From: Burkholderiales bacterium
GTDB taxonomy: Bacteria; Pseudomonadota; Gammaproteobacteria; Burkholderiales; Burkholderiaceae_E
Assembly: GCA_026399835.1 (NCBI GenBank)
Contig: JAPLQE010000066.1
Location: 124,001 to 188,000 of the forward strand
DNA: 64,000 nt
Direction of reading: 5' to 3'
A program made the translations under genes and the position numbers. Shown in pieces: positions 34,742 through 41,219 of this stretch. Positions within the stretch are counted from its first letter, which is position 1. Each line of letters starts with the position of its first letter. The notes beneath the pieces are model-generated. The model ran no database searches, was not told the DNA's origin, and saw nothing but the letters and a program-made list of their open reading frames with translations.

Positions 34742-35884
34742 ATGCCGCAGGTCGATGTCGTCGTGGTCGGGGCCGGCATCGCCGGCGCCTCGATCGCCTA
34801 CTTCCTCGCGCCGCACGTGCGCGTCGTGGTGCTCGAGCGCGAGGCGCATCCGGGCTACCACAGCACCGGCCGCTCGGCCGCGCTGTTCTCCGAGACCTAC
34901 GGCACGCCGCAGGTGCGGGCGCTGTCGCGCGCGAGCCGGGCCTTTCTCGAGCATCCGCCGGCCGGCTTCGCCGAGTCGCCGATCCTGACCCGGCGCGGCG
35001 CGCTGATGGTCGGCGGGCCCGGCGACGAGGCGCTGCTCGCCGCGGAGCTCGCCTCGATGCAGCGGATCACCCCGGAGGTGCGGCGCGTCGAGGCCGCCGA
35101 GGTGCTCGCGATGGTGCCGGTGATGCGGCCCGAAGCCACCGGCGCCGCGATCCTCGAGCCGGGCGCCTGCGACATCGACGTGCACACCCTGCACCAGGGC
35201 TTCCTGCGCGGCCTGAAGGCACGCGGCGGCGAGCTCGTCTGCGGCGCCGAGGTCACCGCGGTCGAGCGCGGCGCGGCGGGCTGGACGGTGCGCTGCGGCG
35301 AGCGGTCCTGGCAGGCCGCGGTACTCGTCGACGCCGCCGGTGCCTGGGCGGACGTGCTCGCCCGCATGGCCGGGGTGCGTCCGATCGGCCTGCAGCCGCG
35401 CCGCCGCGCCGCGTTCACCTTCGCGCCGCCGGCCGGGGTCGACCCGCGCGCCTGGCCCGCGGTCATCGCGCTCGACGAGCACTGGTACATCAAGCCCGAC
35501 GCCGGCGTGCTGATCGGCTCGCCCGCGAACGCCGACCCGGTCGAGCCGCACGACGTGGTGCCCGAGGAGCTGGACATCGCGATCGCGATCGACCGCATCC
35601 AGACGGCCACCACGCTCGAGATCCGCCGCCCGATCCGCACCTGGGCGGGCCTGCGCTCCTTCGTCGCCGACGGCGACCTGGTCGGCGGCCCCGCGCCCGA
35701 CGACCCGGCCTTCGTCTGGTCGGCCGCCCAGGGCGGCTACGGCATCCAGACCTGCGCGGCGATGGGCGAGGCCTGCGCCGCGCTCGCCCGCGGCGTGCCG
35801 ATCCCCGACCACCTGGCCGCGCACGGCATCGATGCGGCGATGCTGTCGCCCGCGCGCCTGCAGGCCGCGGGAGGCGCCGCATGA
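34742..35884 (+). CDS. dauA: FAD-dependent D-amino-acid dehydrogenase, D-arginine dehydrogenase (DauA)-like
   Basis: DAO-family flavoprotein. It tracks P. aeruginosa D-arginine dehydrogenase, as I remember that sequence, along its whole length: VVVGAGIAGASIAYFLA (FAD loop), HPGYHSTGRSAALFSETYG, ACDIDVHTLHQGFLRGL, GLQPRRRAAFTFAPP, LIGSPANADPVEPHDV, TWAGLRSFVADGDLV and AAQGGYGIQTCAAMGEA. DauA oxidises D-arginine and other D-amino acids to 2-oxo acids and passes electrons to the respiratory chain. 380 aa. It overlaps the M81 peptidase gene by 4 bp (ATGA), so the two are coexpressed. The exact substrate could differ. Confidence 0.82.
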   Translation: MPQVDVVVVGAGIAGASIAYFLAPHVRVVVLEREAHPGYHSTGRSAALFSETYGTPQVRALSRASRAFLEHPPAGFAESPILTRRGALMVGGPGDEALLAAELASMQRITPEVRRVEAAEVLAMVPVMRPEATGAAILEPGACDIDVHTLHQGFLRGLKARGGELVCGAEVTAVERGAAGWTVRCGERSWQAAVLVDAAGAWADVLARMAGVRPIGLQPRRRAAFTFAPPAGVDPRAWPAVIALDEHWYIKPDAGVLIGSPANADPVEPHDVVPEELDIAIAIDRIQTATTLEIRRPIRTWAGLRSFVADGDLVGGPAPDDPAFVWSAAQGGYGIQTCAAMGEACAALARGVPIPDHLAAHGIDAAMLSPARLQAAGGAA

Positions 35885-37323
35885 AGGTCTTCAGCGCCAC
35901 CCTCGCCACCGAGACCAACACCTTCGCGCCGCTGCCCACCGGGCTCGACGCGTTCCGCGACCGCGGCTACTTCCCCGCCGGCACCCACCCCGACGCGCCG
36001 CAGCTCTTCACCGGCCCGCTGTGGGCCGCGCGGCTGCGCGCCGCGCAGCACGGCCTCGTGCTCGCCGAGGGGCTGTGCGCCTCGGCGATGCCCGCCGGCC
36101 CGACCACGCGCCTCGCGCACGAGACCCTGCGCGACGAACTCCTCGCCGACCTTCGCGCGGCGATGCCGGTGAACATCGTGCTGCTCGGGCTGCACGGCGC
36201 GATGGTCGCCGACGGCTGCGACGACTGCGAGGGCGACCTGCTGGCGCGGGTGCGCGCGATCGTCGGGCCGGCGGTGGTGGTCGGCGCCGAGCTCGACCCG
36301 CACACCCACCTCACCGACGCGATGGTCGCGAACGCCGACCTGCTGGTCGCCTTCCGCGAGTATCCGCACACCGACGCGCTCGAGCGCGGGCTGGAACTCG
36401 TCGACGCCTGCGTGCGCGTCGCGCGCGGCGAGATCCGCCCGGTGCCCGCCGTGTACGACACCGGCACGCTGCGCACCCTGCACACCTCGCGCGAGCCGAT
36501 GCGCGGCTTCGTCGACCGCACGAAGGCGATGGAGGGCCGCGACGGCATCGTGTCGATCTCCGCGATCCACGGGTTCCCGTGGGCCGACGTCGCCGAGCTC
36601 GGCACGAGGCTGCTGGTCTACGCCGATGGCGACGCGGCGCTCGCGCGCCGCACCGCCGACCGCCTGGGTGCCGAGCTGCGCACGGTCTGCGACGCGATGT
36701 GCACCAAGGGCCCGTCGATCGACGCGGCCCTCGACGACGCGCTGGCCGGCCCCGCCTGGCCGGTGGTGCTCGCCGACGGCGCCGACAACGCCGGCGGCGG
36801 CGCCCCGAGCGACGCCACCTTCGTGCTGCGCCGCCTGGTGGAACGCCGCGTCGAGGGCGCGGTGATCGGCCCGCTCTGGGATCCGGTGGCGGTGTCGATC
36901 GCGATGCAGGCGGGCGAGGGCGCCCGCATCGCGCTGCGCATCGGCGGCAAGGTGGCGCCGGTCTCGGGCGATCCGCTCGATGCGACCGTGGAGGTCCGGG
37001 CACTGAGGCGCGACGCGACCATGCCCGGCCTGTCGGGCAGCGTCGAGCCCCTCGGCGACTGCGCGCTGGTCGCGATCGGTGGCGTCGAGGTGCTGCTCAA
37101 CGCCCGTCGCACGCAGGGCTTCTCGACCGAGATGTTCACGCGGATGGGCGTCGACCTCGCGATGCGCCGCGTCGTCGTGACCAAGTCCTCGCAGCATTTC
37201 TTTGCGTCGTTCTCGCGGATCGCGGCGCGCACGATCTACGTGGACGCGCCGGGCACGCTGACCTCGGCCCTCACGACCCTGCCCTACCGCAAGGCCCGGC
37301 GGGCGGTGATCGAAGGCTACTGA
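35881..37323 (+). CDS. M81-family metallopeptidase (MlrC-like)
   Basis: Zinc peptidase family named after microcystinase C; most members are of unknown substrate and occur beside amidohydrolase or amino acid genes. 480 aa with the MlrC N- and C-terminal domains. Candidate metal ligands lie in GLHGAMVADGCDDCEGDLL, GAELDPHTHLTDAM and FREYPHTDA; the C-terminal domain contains DGADNAGGGAPSDATFVLR and TKSSQHFFASF. Coupled to the DauA-like gene: a peptidase or amidase acting on D-amino-acid-containing compounds is a reasonable guess. No signal peptide. Confidence 0.87.
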   Translation: MKVFSATLATETNTFAPLPTGLDAFRDRGYFPAGTHPDAPQLFTGPLWAARLRAAQHGLVLAEGLCASAMPAGPTTRLAHETLRDELLADLRAAMPVNIVLLGLHGAMVADGCDDCEGDLLARVRAIVGPAVVVGAELDPHTHLTDAMVANADLLVAFREYPHTDALERGLELVDACVRVARGEIRPVPAVYDTGTLRTLHTSREPMRGFVDRTKAMEGRDGIVSISAIHGFPWADVAELGTRLLVYADGDAALARRTADRLGAELRTVCDAMCTKGPSIDAALDDALAGPAWPVVLADGADNAGGGAPSDATFVLRRLVERRVEGAVIGPLWDPVAVSIAMQAGEGARIALRIGGKVAPVSGDPLDATVEVRALRRDATMPGLSGSVEPLGDCALVAIGGVEVLLNARRTQGFSTEMFTRMGVDLAMRRVVVTKSSQHFFASFSRIAARTIYVDAPGTLTSALTTLPYRKARRAVIEGY

Positions 37324-37351
37324 GCGCGGCCGGCGGCCGTGGATCCGCGAC

Positions 37352-37380
37352 TTGCGGCGTCCGGCCGATCCGGCTAGAGT
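37352..37380 (+). promoter_or_regulatory. aroG leader promoter
   Basis: TTGCGG (37352-37357) and TAGAGT (37375-37380) with an ideal 17-bp spacer. Transcription would start near 37387, only about 3 nt before the leader-peptide ATG, so the leader peptide would be read from an almost leaderless message. This is one of the better-spaced sigma70 promoters in the window. Confidence 0.7.
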
Positions 37381-37389
37381 GCTTCCACC

Positions 37390-37473
37390 ATGCCGCGCAT
37401 CTGGTTTTACGCGTTCTTCTTTTTCGGCTTTCCGCCCGCTGGCGGACTGAGTCGGGAGCGCGCGCAAGCCTAG
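37390..37473 (+). CDS. Aromatic-rich leader peptide of the aroG attenuator (27 aa)
   Basis: ATG at 37390, stop TAG at 37471-37473. Residues 5-14 are W-F-Y-A-F-F-F-F-G-F: six Phe, one Trp and one Tyr in ten codons, all the aromatic amino acids made from the pathway that the downstream gene begins. The rest (PPAGGLSRERAQA) is ordinary. The codon block ends exactly where the first arm of the attenuator begins. The peptide itself probably has no function; ribosome stalling at the aromatic codons is the signal, as in pheL of enteric bacteria. Confidence 0.88.
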   Translation: MPRIWFYAFFFFGFPPAGGLSRERAQA

Positions 37474-37529
37474 CAGCACACAGCACCCGAACAGAACCGC
37501 CAGCCCGAGAGGCCTGGCGGTTTTTGTTT
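37431..37529 (+). terminator. aroG attenuator: pause, antiterminator and intrinsic terminator hairpins
   Basis: Four segments can pair in exclusive ways. 1:2 is TCCGCC (37431-37436) with GGCGGA (37441-37446). 2:3 is GCTGGCGG (37438-37445) with CCGCCAGC (37497-37504), a perfect 8-bp antiterminator. 3:4 is AACCGCCAG (37495-37503) with CTGGCGGTT (37514-37522), followed by TTTTTGTTT, an intrinsic terminator 49 bp upstream of aroG. A ribosome stalled on the Phe codons would cover segment 1 and free 2 to pair with 3, allowing read-through; fast translation, or none, favours 3:4 and termination. Confidence 0.88.
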
Positions 37530-37577
37530 CTGGGGCCGGCACCGAACGACACAGGGAACGGGAACGAGGATCCACCG

Positions 37578-38648
37578 ATGAACGCCCAGCACGCCACCGA
37601 CGACGTCCGAATCCGCGCGATGAAGGAGCTCTCGCCGCCTTCGCACCTGATCCGCGAGTTCCCGCTGCGCGAGCGCCCGGCGCAGCTCGTCTACGAGACC
37701 CGGCAGTCGATCCACCGGATCCTGCACGGCATGGACGACCGGCTGCTGGTGGTGGTCGGCCCCTGCTCGATCCACGACACGAAGGCTGCGATGGAGTACG
37801 CCCGCCGCCTGGCCGGCGAGCGCGAGCGCCTCAAGGACCGGCTCGAGATCGTGATGCGCGTGTACTTCGAGAAGCCGCGTACCACGGTCGGCTGGAAGGG
37901 CCTGATCAACGACCCCGGCCTGGACAACAGCTTCGACATCAACCGCGGCCTGCGCCTGGCGCGCGAGCTGCTGGTCGAGATCAATGAGCTCGACCTGCCT
38001 GCGGGCACCGAGTTCCTCGACATGATCACGCCGCAGTACGTCGCCGACCTGATCTCCTGGGGTGCGATCGGCGCGCGCACCACCGAGTCGCAGGTGCATC
38101 GCGAGCTGGCCTCGGGGCTGTCCTGCCCGGTCGGCTTCAAGAACGGCACCGACGGCAACGTGCGGATCGCGCTCGACGCGATCAAGGCCGCCTCGCAGCC
38201 GCACCACTTCCTGTCGGTCACCAAGGGCGGTCACTCGGCGATCGTCTCGACCAACGGCAACGAGGACTGCCACCTGATCCTGCGCGGCGGCAAGGCGCCC
38301 AACTACGACCGCGCCAGCATCGACGCGGCCTGCCGCGAGGCCGGCTCCGCGGCGCTCGCCTGCCGGCTGATGGTCGACGCCAGCCACGGCAACAGCCAGA
38401 AGAAGCACGAGAACCAGCTCGCGGTCGCGCGCGACCTCGCCGAGCAGCTCGCCGACGGCGAGTCGCGGGTCTTCGGCGTGATGCTCGAGAGTCATCTGGT
38501 CGCGGGCCGGCAGGACCTGCAGGTCGGGCGGCCGCTCGCCTACGGGCAGAGCGTCACCGATGCCTGCCTGGGCTGGGAGGACACGATCGCGGCGATCGAC
38601 ACGCTCGCCGAGGGCGTCGCCGAGCGGCGGGTCGCGCTGGCGAACTGA
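37578..38648 (+). CDS. aroG: 3-deoxy-7-phosphoheptulonate (DAHP) synthase, class I AroF/G/H type
   Basis: First committed step of aromatic amino acid synthesis: condenses phosphoenolpyruvate and erythrose 4-phosphate. 356 aa, complete, with family blocks VVVGPCSIHDTKAAMEYA, VYFEKPRTTVGWKGLINDP, ISWGAIGARTTESQVHRELA, GLSCPVGFKNGTDGN, ILRGGKAPNY, DASHGNSQKKHENQ and GVMLESHLVAG. These carry the PEP-binding Arg/Lys and the metal Cys, His, Glu and Asp. GAGGA (37566-37570) precedes ATG 37578. Transcription is predicted to be attenuated through the Phe/Tyr/Trp-rich leader peptide upstream. Which amino acid also inhibits the enzyme cannot be read with confidence. Confidence 0.96.
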   Translation: MNAQHATDDVRIRAMKELSPPSHLIREFPLRERPAQLVYETRQSIHRILHGMDDRLLVVVGPCSIHDTKAAMEYARRLAGERERLKDRLEIVMRVYFEKPRTTVGWKGLINDPGLDNSFDINRGLRLARELLVEINELDLPAGTEFLDMITPQYVADLISWGAIGARTTESQVHRELASGLSCPVGFKNGTDGNVRIALDAIKAASQPHHFLSVTKGGHSAIVSTNGNEDCHLILRGGKAPNYDRASIDAACREAGSAALACRLMVDASHGNSQKKHENQLAVARDLAEQLADGESRVFGVMLESHLVAGRQDLQVGRPLAYGQSVTDACLGWEDTIAAIDTLAEGVAERRVALAN

Positions 38649-38821: not shown

Positions 38822-39412
38822 ATGGAGGCATCCACGCTCAGGTCCCCCGGGGGCCCCGCCCGCCCCGAGACCGCGATCCGGCAGACGCCGCACGAGCGCC
38901 TGAGCGCCATCGGCCTGCGCCCGATCGGCCGGGCGAGCGAGTTCGCCGACGACATCCACGGGCTGATGGCCAAGACCCCGCTGTTCTCGGGCCTGGACCT
39001 CGAAGAGACCCGCAAGCTCGGGGCCTTCATGTACGTCTACGAGGCCCCGGCCGGCGTCACCATCATCTCCGAGGGCGAGACCGGCGACTTCATGATGCTG
39101 CTGATGGGCGGCATGGTCGACGTGCTGCGCCGCAACCGCTACAACTTCCCGTCGCGGATCGCGGTCGCCCACTCGGGCCACGCGCTCGGCGAGATGTCGA
39201 TGTTCGACGGCGAGCCGCGCTTCGCGTCCTGCGTGACGATCGAGCCCTCGCGGATCGCGGTCCTCACCCGCGACGCGATGCTGCTGGTCCTGCACGACGA
39301 GCCGCGGCTCGGCAGCAAGATCCTGCTGAAGCTGGTGCAGCTGCTCTCCGACCGGCTTCGCCAGACCAGCGCGAAGCTGGTGTCCTACCTCGAGGCCTCG
39401 CGCGAGGCCTGA
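38822..39412 (+). CDS. Cyclic-nucleotide-binding domain protein without DNA-binding domain
   Basis: 196 aa. Residues about 50-185 form a CRP-type cNMP-binding barrel: TPLFSGLDLEETRKLGAFMY, AGVTIISEGETGDFMMLLM and the phosphate-binding cassette LGEMSMFDGEPRFASC (the Arg is present). A C-terminal helix (LRQTSAKLVSYLEAS) follows where CRP would carry a helix-turn-helix; none is present. The N-terminal about 40 residues are disordered. GGAGGA lies just upstream of the ATG. It is probably a stand-alone nucleotide sensor whose partner is unknown. It precedes the sigma54 activator gene on the same strand by 175 bp. Confidence 0.85.
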   Translation: MEASTLRSPGGPARPETAIRQTPHERLSAIGLRPIGRASEFADDIHGLMAKTPLFSGLDLEETRKLGAFMYVYEAPAGVTIISEGETGDFMMLLMGGMVDVLRRNRYNFPSRIAVAHSGHALGEMSMFDGEPRFASCVTIEPSRIAVLTRDAMLLVLHDEPRLGSKILLKLVQLLSDRLRQTSAKLVSYLEASREA

Positions 39413-39524
39413 GCGTCCTCGACCTGCGGGTCGATCCCCGGCGGTGCCGGCGGGTGCCACCCCCCGCGGCGCGCACCCTTCCGCGCACCATCCGGCGGCG
39501 CGAAGCGCCTCGCCACGGGGCGCC

Positions 39525-39541
39525 GTGGACACTTTGTTCAC
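39525..39541. promoter_or_regulatory. 17-bp inverted repeat at the sigma54 activator promoter
   Basis: GTGGACACTTTGTTCAC: arms GTGnACA and TGTnCAC around CTT. It has the same 17-bp geometry and right half-site (GTTCAC) as the repeat at 46296-46312 upstream of the cyn operon. Here it abuts the -24 element (3 bp away), a position better suited to autorepression than to activation. Confidence 0.5.
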
Positions 39542-39542
39542 C

Positions 39543-39558
39543 CGGCATCGACTTTGCT
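39543..39558 (+). promoter_or_regulatory. Candidate sigma54 (-24/-12) promoter of the activator gene
   Basis: CGGCATCGACTTTGCT matches 9 of 12 defined positions of TGGCACGNNNNTTGCW with the essential GG and GC exactly 12 bp apart (39544-45 and 39556-57). Initiation near 39569 leaves room for the GAGGAGA ribosome-binding site (39577-39583) before ATG 39588. It suggests that the activator may be autoregulated. Confidence 0.5.
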
Positions 39559-39587
39559 TGGGCTCGGTCTCCCCCCGAGGAGACACG

Positions 39588-41219
<1,632 letters not shown>

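Follow-up and report, generated by a model that had tools for sequence, protein, structure and literature searches.

The window analysed here, a 64,000-nucleotide stretch of a contig from a Burkholderiales bacterium, carries on its forward strand a class I DAHP synthase gene, aroG, behind a short reading frame rich in aromatic codons and a set of RNA segments that can pair in mutually exclusive ways. The features are laid out as follows:

37352..37380, + strand: putative promoter, -35 box TTGCGG (37352-37357), 17-nt spacer and -10 box TAGAGT (37375-37380)
37390..37473, + strand: leader peptide ORF MPRIWFYAFFFFGFPPAGGLSRERAQA, 27 codons and TAG, translation read from the DNA
37421..37436, + strand: segment 1, 5' arm of the 1:2 hairpin, within Phe/Gly/Phe/Pro codons; drawn from fold energy, alignment consensus weak
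37438..37458, + strand: segment 2, GCTGGCGG followed by CTG and TCGGG, partner of segment 1 or segment 3
37486..37504, + strand: segment 3, CCCGA, CAG and CCGCCAGC, partner of segment 2 or, via 37495-37503, of segment 4
37495..37529, + strand: intrinsic terminator 3:4, with its 5' arm at 37495-37503, its 3' arm (segment 4) at 37514-37522 and a T tract at 37521-37529
37578..38648, + strand: aroG, class I 3-deoxy-7-phosphoheptulonate (DAHP) synthase, 356 aa, the proposed regulated gene

A candidate ribosome-binding site (GAGG, 37566-37569) precedes the aroG ATG at 37578. The encoded enzyme narrowly passes the NCBIfam model NF006723 (570.3 bits, cut-off 568) and also exceeds the cut-offs of three other DAHP synthase models, one of them of the Trp-sensitive type, while its best-scoring solved chains include Phe-sensitive DAHP synthases; as several models are passed, their names do not settle the feedback type of AroG. 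Adjoining the leader upstream is an MlrC-like ORF (35881-37323) which scores 396 bits against microcystinase MlrC, far below the cut-off of 999. Elsewhere in the window, at 39444-41219 and downstream of an ORF with weak matches to cyclic-nucleotide regulators (38822-39412), lies a gene for a sigma-54-type activator nearest NifA (454.8 bits, below the 528.85 cut-off).

A sequence-only reading of this DNA had proposed a 27-codon leader before aroG followed by exclusive 1:2, 2:3 and 3:4 pairings, the last an intrinsic terminator, and the re-read coordinates bear this out. The antiterminator helix it described as perfect indeed forms eight of eight pairs between GCTGGCGG (37438-37445) and CCGCCAGC (37497-37504), but the inner helices CTG/CAG and TCGGG/CCCGA had been overlooked; the 2:3 pairing has a fold energy of -31.3 kcal/mol. 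Likewise, the 1:2 hairpin exists but is larger than the CCGCC/GGCGG stem first given, pairing about 37421-37436 with 37441-37458 (-19.8 kcal/mol), and Phe codons 11, 12 and 14 lie in or at its 5' arm. The terminator (-18.7 kcal/mol) joins arms AACCGCCAG (37495-37503) and CTGGCGGTT (37514-37522) with one mismatch inside the stem, and its T tract TTTTTGTTT (37521-37529) ends 48 nt before the aroG ATG. None of 200 dinucleotide shuffles folds as stably as the region 37388-37535 (z -3.29).

Conservation of these pairings was assessed at 111 loci, comprising 30 matches from 74 genomes of the bacterium's own family (69 with a match), the genome's own paralogue, and the best 80 named contigs listed. 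Leaders were sought within 330 nt of the gene as at least four aromatic codons in ten. Ten loci had no such leader, including two at contig ends and the own paralogue, and 16 were duplicates. From the remaining 85 candidates five were dropped, three as spurious ORFs with no terminator (L072, L096, L106) and two as weak or interrupted (L077, L097), and L062 was removed as identical, giving an alignment (A1) of 79 distinct sequences. The terminator is paired in 90% of the cells of this alignment, the outer antiterminator helix in 85% and the inner helix in 58%. At terminator columns 131/145, A-U is replaced by G-C in 21 rows, and column 131 with segment-2 column 42 reads U-A in 34 rows, C-G in 21, G-C in one and unpaired in 23, a change that links all three of segments 2, 3 and 4. 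For both helices the covariation scores lie above all 500 shuffles, which ignore relatedness, and above all slid versions; counts of 2:3 pairs with two-sided change were reached by 417 of the 500 shuffles, of further 2:3 pair types by 354 and of further 3:4 pair types by 309. In folds of single sequences, segment 2 pairs with segment 3 in the minimum-energy structure of 76 of the 79 relatives, and the linker is modestly more stable than its shuffled versions (mean z -1.1, 37/79 below -1). The 1:2 pairing has a weak alignment consensus, with a different hairpin in the Oxalobacteraceae set when clade subsets were folded by RNAalifold, and was therefore assessed by per-sequence folds in place of those subsets; at least three of the five GGCGG bases are paired, to any partner, in 68 of 79 local folds (mean z -0.7).

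The segment-2 motif GG(C/T)GG falls in reading frames 0, 1 and 2 of 23, 13 and 44 of 80 leaders, respectively (L017 excluded; an arm-3 pattern, which mis-picks CCGAC in a few rows, was not used for frames). As the frame shifts, the motif appears to be kept for pairing and not for the peptide, that is, as an RNA constraint within a coding leader. Differences between similar leaders (223 non-independent pairs) differ in pattern along the leader: upstream of segment 2 they number 329, 259 and 565 at codon positions 1, 2 and 3, with 420 changed codons synonymous and 472 non-synonymous, and downstream 268, 362 and 337. Such a pattern is compatible with, but no proof of, an aromatic stretch that is translated and a later stretch constrained as RNA.

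We built a covariance model (R1) for the aroG attenuator and searched it across genome samples. In the bacterium's own genome the only full-length match is the aroG leader locus. Within the order, a cut-off of E 0.01 gave at least one match in 180 of 300 genomes; 78 strong matches (E ≤1.5e-6) were spread over 14 families. All 72 strong matches that were fetched lie upstream of aroG in the sense orientation and three more lie directly before aroG by their coordinates, so that 75 of the 78 are covered (G130, G337 and G204 being left out). Among 17 weaker order matches (L188-L204), three precede aroG in sense and 14 do not, six of these 14 spanning the full model (E 7.9e-6 to 5e-4); no second target gene was apparent among the unannotated downstream ORFs viewed at ten of the 14, though one may exist. 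Carriers include Paraburkholderia, Pandoraea, Caballeronia, Collimonas, Herbaspirillum, Massilia, Janthinobacterium, Undibacterium, Lautropia, Quisquiliibacterium and Pigmentiphaga, and the leader is absent from the aroG loci examined in Rhodocyclaceae, Sterolibacteriaceae and Zoogloeaceae. A full-length match before aroG (L137, E 1.4e-13) also occurs in a 1.2 Mb genome of family f30 (G248); it was left out of the leader counts since the wrong ORF had been picked there, with a Phe/Tyr-coding run visible just upstream of that ORF.

Outside the order, 13 genomes among 276 sampled across the class matched at E up to 1e-4, four of them before aroG; at class level, nine of 15 loci with E 9e-7 or worse lie elsewhere than before aroG. 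The order to which one of these matches belongs, here called the second order and perhaps Xanthomonadales, gave 32 matches at E below 1e-6 in 150 genomes, and all 30 checked (G770 and G740 left out) precede aroG; with the f65 locus added this becomes 31 of 31. Across 299 genomes of the phylum, 14 matches at E up to 1e-6 lie outside the class, and the 12 fetched (G825 and G938 left out) all precede aroG. The sequence-only reading had named recurrence in relatives as the check on its proposal; the leader, segments 2, 3 and 4 and their place before aroG do recur in 14 families, and the same holds in the second order and outside the class. Its attenuator reading is thereby supported, with the refinement that the element is widespread rather than peculiar to one betaproteobacterium.

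The same distribution bears on a simpler account, in which the hairpin terminates the upstream peptidase-like gene (stop at 37323) and the leader ORF arose by chance. A terminator between two genes on the same strand would be unremarkable, and short ORFs are common in GC-rich DNA. However, the element stands before aroG in every strong match checked, and the non-conservation that this account predicts was not found. The Phe/Tyr codons of similar leaders, counted over non-independent pairs, show 305 differences that retain the residue, 21 that swap one aromatic residue for another and 86 that change to other residues, and at least eight Phe, Trp or Tyr codons in ten have a probability of about 4e-8 if a 7.5% background is assumed. 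We regard this simpler account as extremely improbable.

Three loci of family f42, in genus g76 (L190, L193 and L201), keep a terminator and a segment-2-like sequence before aroG, but the leader either has few of its aromatic codons left or cannot be made out by eye, possibly through decay of the sensor; a Phe/Tyr leader is still present at another g76 locus (L185).

The promoter had been claimed as well spaced, and its spacer is 17 nt long. Its boxes are weak (three of six consensus matches for TTGCGG, four of six for TAGAGT), and a simple consensus scan called neither promoter nor terminator at the aroG leader at its thresholds. We base the promoter call on its conserved place in relatives rather than on match strength. 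The -10 box ends 9 nt upstream of the leader ATG. Of 29 distinct own-family loci, 28 have a TAnnnT box whose end lies 6-10 nt short of that ATG, where shuffles lead one to expect 1.2. The box occupies the same place in families f4 (7/8), f11 (3/3), f21 (9/9), f42 (4/5) and f48 (7/8), in none of 53 upstream regions from f30 (Paraburkholderia/Pandoraea) and f7 (Oxalobacteraceae) and in none of 15 from f3, f9, f18 and f28 combined; the total is 64 of 140 regions, against 17.9 expected. Many rows of f30 and f7 show by eye TATAAAG- or TATAGT-like boxes about 25-40 nt upstream. Because the own-family -10 boxes end 6-10 nt before the ATG, the leader is probably leaderless or nearly leaderless here, though not in all lineages.

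Eight of the 27 leader codons are aromatic, and W5, F6, Y7, F9, F10, F11 and F12 are the likely control codons, F14 being too near segment 2. The order contributes 124 distinct leaders, of which all 124 contain Phe, 120 Tyr and 47 Trp, with means of 4.7, 2.0 and 0.4 residues per leader; since leaders were chosen by aromatic density, the presence of Phe and Tyr is partly by construction, and the composition describes the leaders and is no independent test. In the second order and f65, where leaders were sought within 300 nt as at least three aromatic codons in ten, all 26 distinct leaders contain Phe, Tyr and Trp, and outside the class all 12 contain Trp (for example MITVATSYFWYFSYDSSLAAGGSRSI). 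The core sensor in the order thus looks like Phe/Tyr, with Trp an extra input in some leaders, which refines the mixed Phe/Tyr/Trp sensor originally proposed. For this particular leader it is quite conceivable, if somewhat short of probable, that only Phe and Tyr are sensed and the single Trp codon has no role. Such a reading accords with the scarcity of Trp relative to Phe and Tyr in the order and with the position of the Trp codon, which comes first and farthest from segment 2, but a ribosome on codon 5 also frees the 2:3 pairing in the masking model described below, and Trp is present in every distinct leader seen in the second order and f65 and in all 12 outside the class.

E. coli trp and pheA are classical ribosome-mediated attenuators. 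With its leader, exclusive and conserved pairings and constant place before aroG, the element described here very probably controls aroG as a transcription attenuator of this classical kind. RNA polymerase would start some 0-4 nt from the leader ATG, and the leader would be translated off a leaderless or nearly leaderless transcript. A shortage of charged tRNA-Phe or tRNA-Tyr, or with this leader of charged tRNA-Trp, would stall the ribosome at codons 5-12, in segment 1 or before reaching it, so that segment 2 stays free to pair with segment 3. Were 2:3 to form before segment 4 is made, no terminator could arise and aroG would be transcribed, hence starvation would induce the gene. With charged tRNAs at hand, the ribosome would pass codons 14-24 and cover segment 2, or 1:2 would form behind it, and with segment 2 so occupied 3:4 would pair and transcription would end near 37529.

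We examined these steps in a masking model in which the ribosome hides 15 nt on the 5' side and 14 nt on the 3' side of the A-site codon's first base. In the absence of segment 4, the modelled probability of 2:3 is 1.0 with the ribosome on codons 3-12, 0.62 at codon 13, 0.09 at codon 14, 0.0 on codons 15-23, 0.06 at codon 24 and 0.79-1.0 from codon 25 to the stop, and this profile identifies codons 5-12 (W F Y A F F F F) as the likely control codons. On codons 3-7 segment 1 is hardly or not masked and 2:3 still wins (probability of 1:2, 0.0), so a need for stalling to open 1:2 does not follow from the model. Once the transcript is complete, 3:4 prevails at any ribosome position (0.91-0.98) with no equilibrium switching, therefore antitermination must be kinetic. 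A ribosome on the stop codon leaves segment 2 unmasked and 2:3 at 1.0, and the securing of termination under plenty is the least certain step of the mechanism.

These properties of the model, in which 1:2 opens without stalling and a ribosome at the stop codon leaves segment 2 free, would suit an attenuator read by an RNA-binding protein, a small RNA or a metabolite, with the aromatic codons secondary, as would the retention of segment 2 as nucleotides in shifting frames. Against such a reader, aromatic codons are kept in the leaders of distant lineages, and upstream of segment 2 most changes fall at third codon positions (565 against 329 and 259 at the first and second), even though non-synonymous and synonymous codon changes there are about equal in number. 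No riboswitch, T-box or leader family of Rfam matches either: Rfam 15 at gathering scores gave no match in the window, amino-acid leaders, T-box and riboswitches included, and at E up to 10 the best hit within 37340-37600 was to an unrelated family (E 3.4). We consider a reader other than the ribosome very improbable, and favour control by the translating ribosome.

The genome holds a second aroG-type gene, 64-65% identical (L002, G000:C68:71195-72259), and no aromatic leader was found within 330 nt before it. In AroG trees, which are midpoint-rooted, with weak support near the root and some long branches, the attenuator-bearing enzymes of f60, f216, f65 and those from outside the class form one group (100/99), and this group adjoins an Alcaligenaceae enzyme and one f4 enzyme (97/95). 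The arrangement suggests that gene and attenuator were transferred together, unless the root lies inside that group. There are exceptions, as the f208 enzyme L226 of the second order groups with f21 and the f4 enzyme L160 falls elsewhere. A second AroG clade mixes element-bearing enzymes of f48, f9, f10, f3 and f38 with the own paralogue, which lacks the element, hence the element is not tied to one paralogue. The AroG of a Sphingosinicella contig (L088, Sphingosinicellaceae) groups with own-family AroGs and has no leader, a possible case of transfer without the switch.

The trees can be read as the history of a self-regulating cassette, in which aroG and its attenuator, with its own two- or three-aromatic sensor and an almost leaderless transcript, would have arisen in Betaproteobacteria lacking TyrR and mostly lacking TrpR, and been passed on together into the second order and beyond the class, with the mix of Phe, Tyr and Trp codons readjusted in each lineage. 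The uncertain root and the L226 exception lower our confidence in this history, and we find belief and doubt about evenly matched. Regarding the regulators themselves, the TyrR-type helix-turn-helix model (TIGR04381) exceeded its cut-off in none of 80 genomes of the order (two weaker matches) and TrpR in two of 80 (one weaker match), with E. coli positive in both control searches. A TrpR match in family f40 (G112:C7:354302-354553) reads through one TAA stop. In the parts of the literature consulted, TrpR and TyrR are described as conserved in many gammaproteobacterial groups and absent in other classes (PMC5343134), and TyrR/TrpR control of aromatic synthesis is described mainly for gammaproteobacteria having these regulators.

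The mechanism of ribosome-mediated attenuation is set out in PMC7298713 and PMC5343134. The E. coli trp and pheA attenuators resemble the aroG element: cognate codons fill a leader ORF, the hairpins exclude one another, an intrinsic terminator follows, and the gene downstream belongs to the cognate pathway. The aroG element differs from them in targeting the first common enzyme, DAHP synthase, in its mixed Phe/Tyr/Trp codons, in a 5' UTR predicted to be very short in many lineages, and in matching no Rfam family. A similar case by target is uORFC-13-1 before Acholeplasma aroF, likewise a predicted Phe-codon uORF with a terminator ahead of a DAHP synthase gene, described from 24 representatives in Acholeplasma and environmental sequence, with a ribosome-binding site (PMC8632094); the comparison covers this description. 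Sinorhizobium meliloti trpL/rnTrpL, in the corresponding part of PMC7298713, offers a leaderless attenuator in Proteobacteria whose transcript begins at the leader ATG, as we propose for aroG, but it contains Trp codons only, precedes trpE(G), and its RNA and peptide act in trans. Attenuation has also been proposed for class I DAHP synthase genes in Vibrio (DAHP synthase > tyrA; PMC1173090, Table 7) and Shewanella (aroF; PMC2659441), in the sections consulted for Tyr-type enzymes of other gammaproteobacteria; as the table in PMC1173090 covers tyrA-linked attenuators only, its silence on aroG is uninformative. In the literature searched, which excluded supplements and most subscription papers, we found no published attenuator before aroG for Burkholderiales or the other carrier lineages, although the list of 82 short 5' UTRs of B. 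cenocepacia (Table S3, PMC5688073) may include one. The kind of attenuator is known, and the aroG family appears to be undescribed.

A conserved RNA element before aroG would explain how the entry step of aromatic synthesis is controlled where TyrR and TrpR are mostly absent, and the aroG attenuator would make a family of its own of the Rfam type. If it spread along with aroG, enzyme and sensor have travelled together, and in harmless Paraburkholderia hosts it would be an obvious control point for the production of aromatic compounds.
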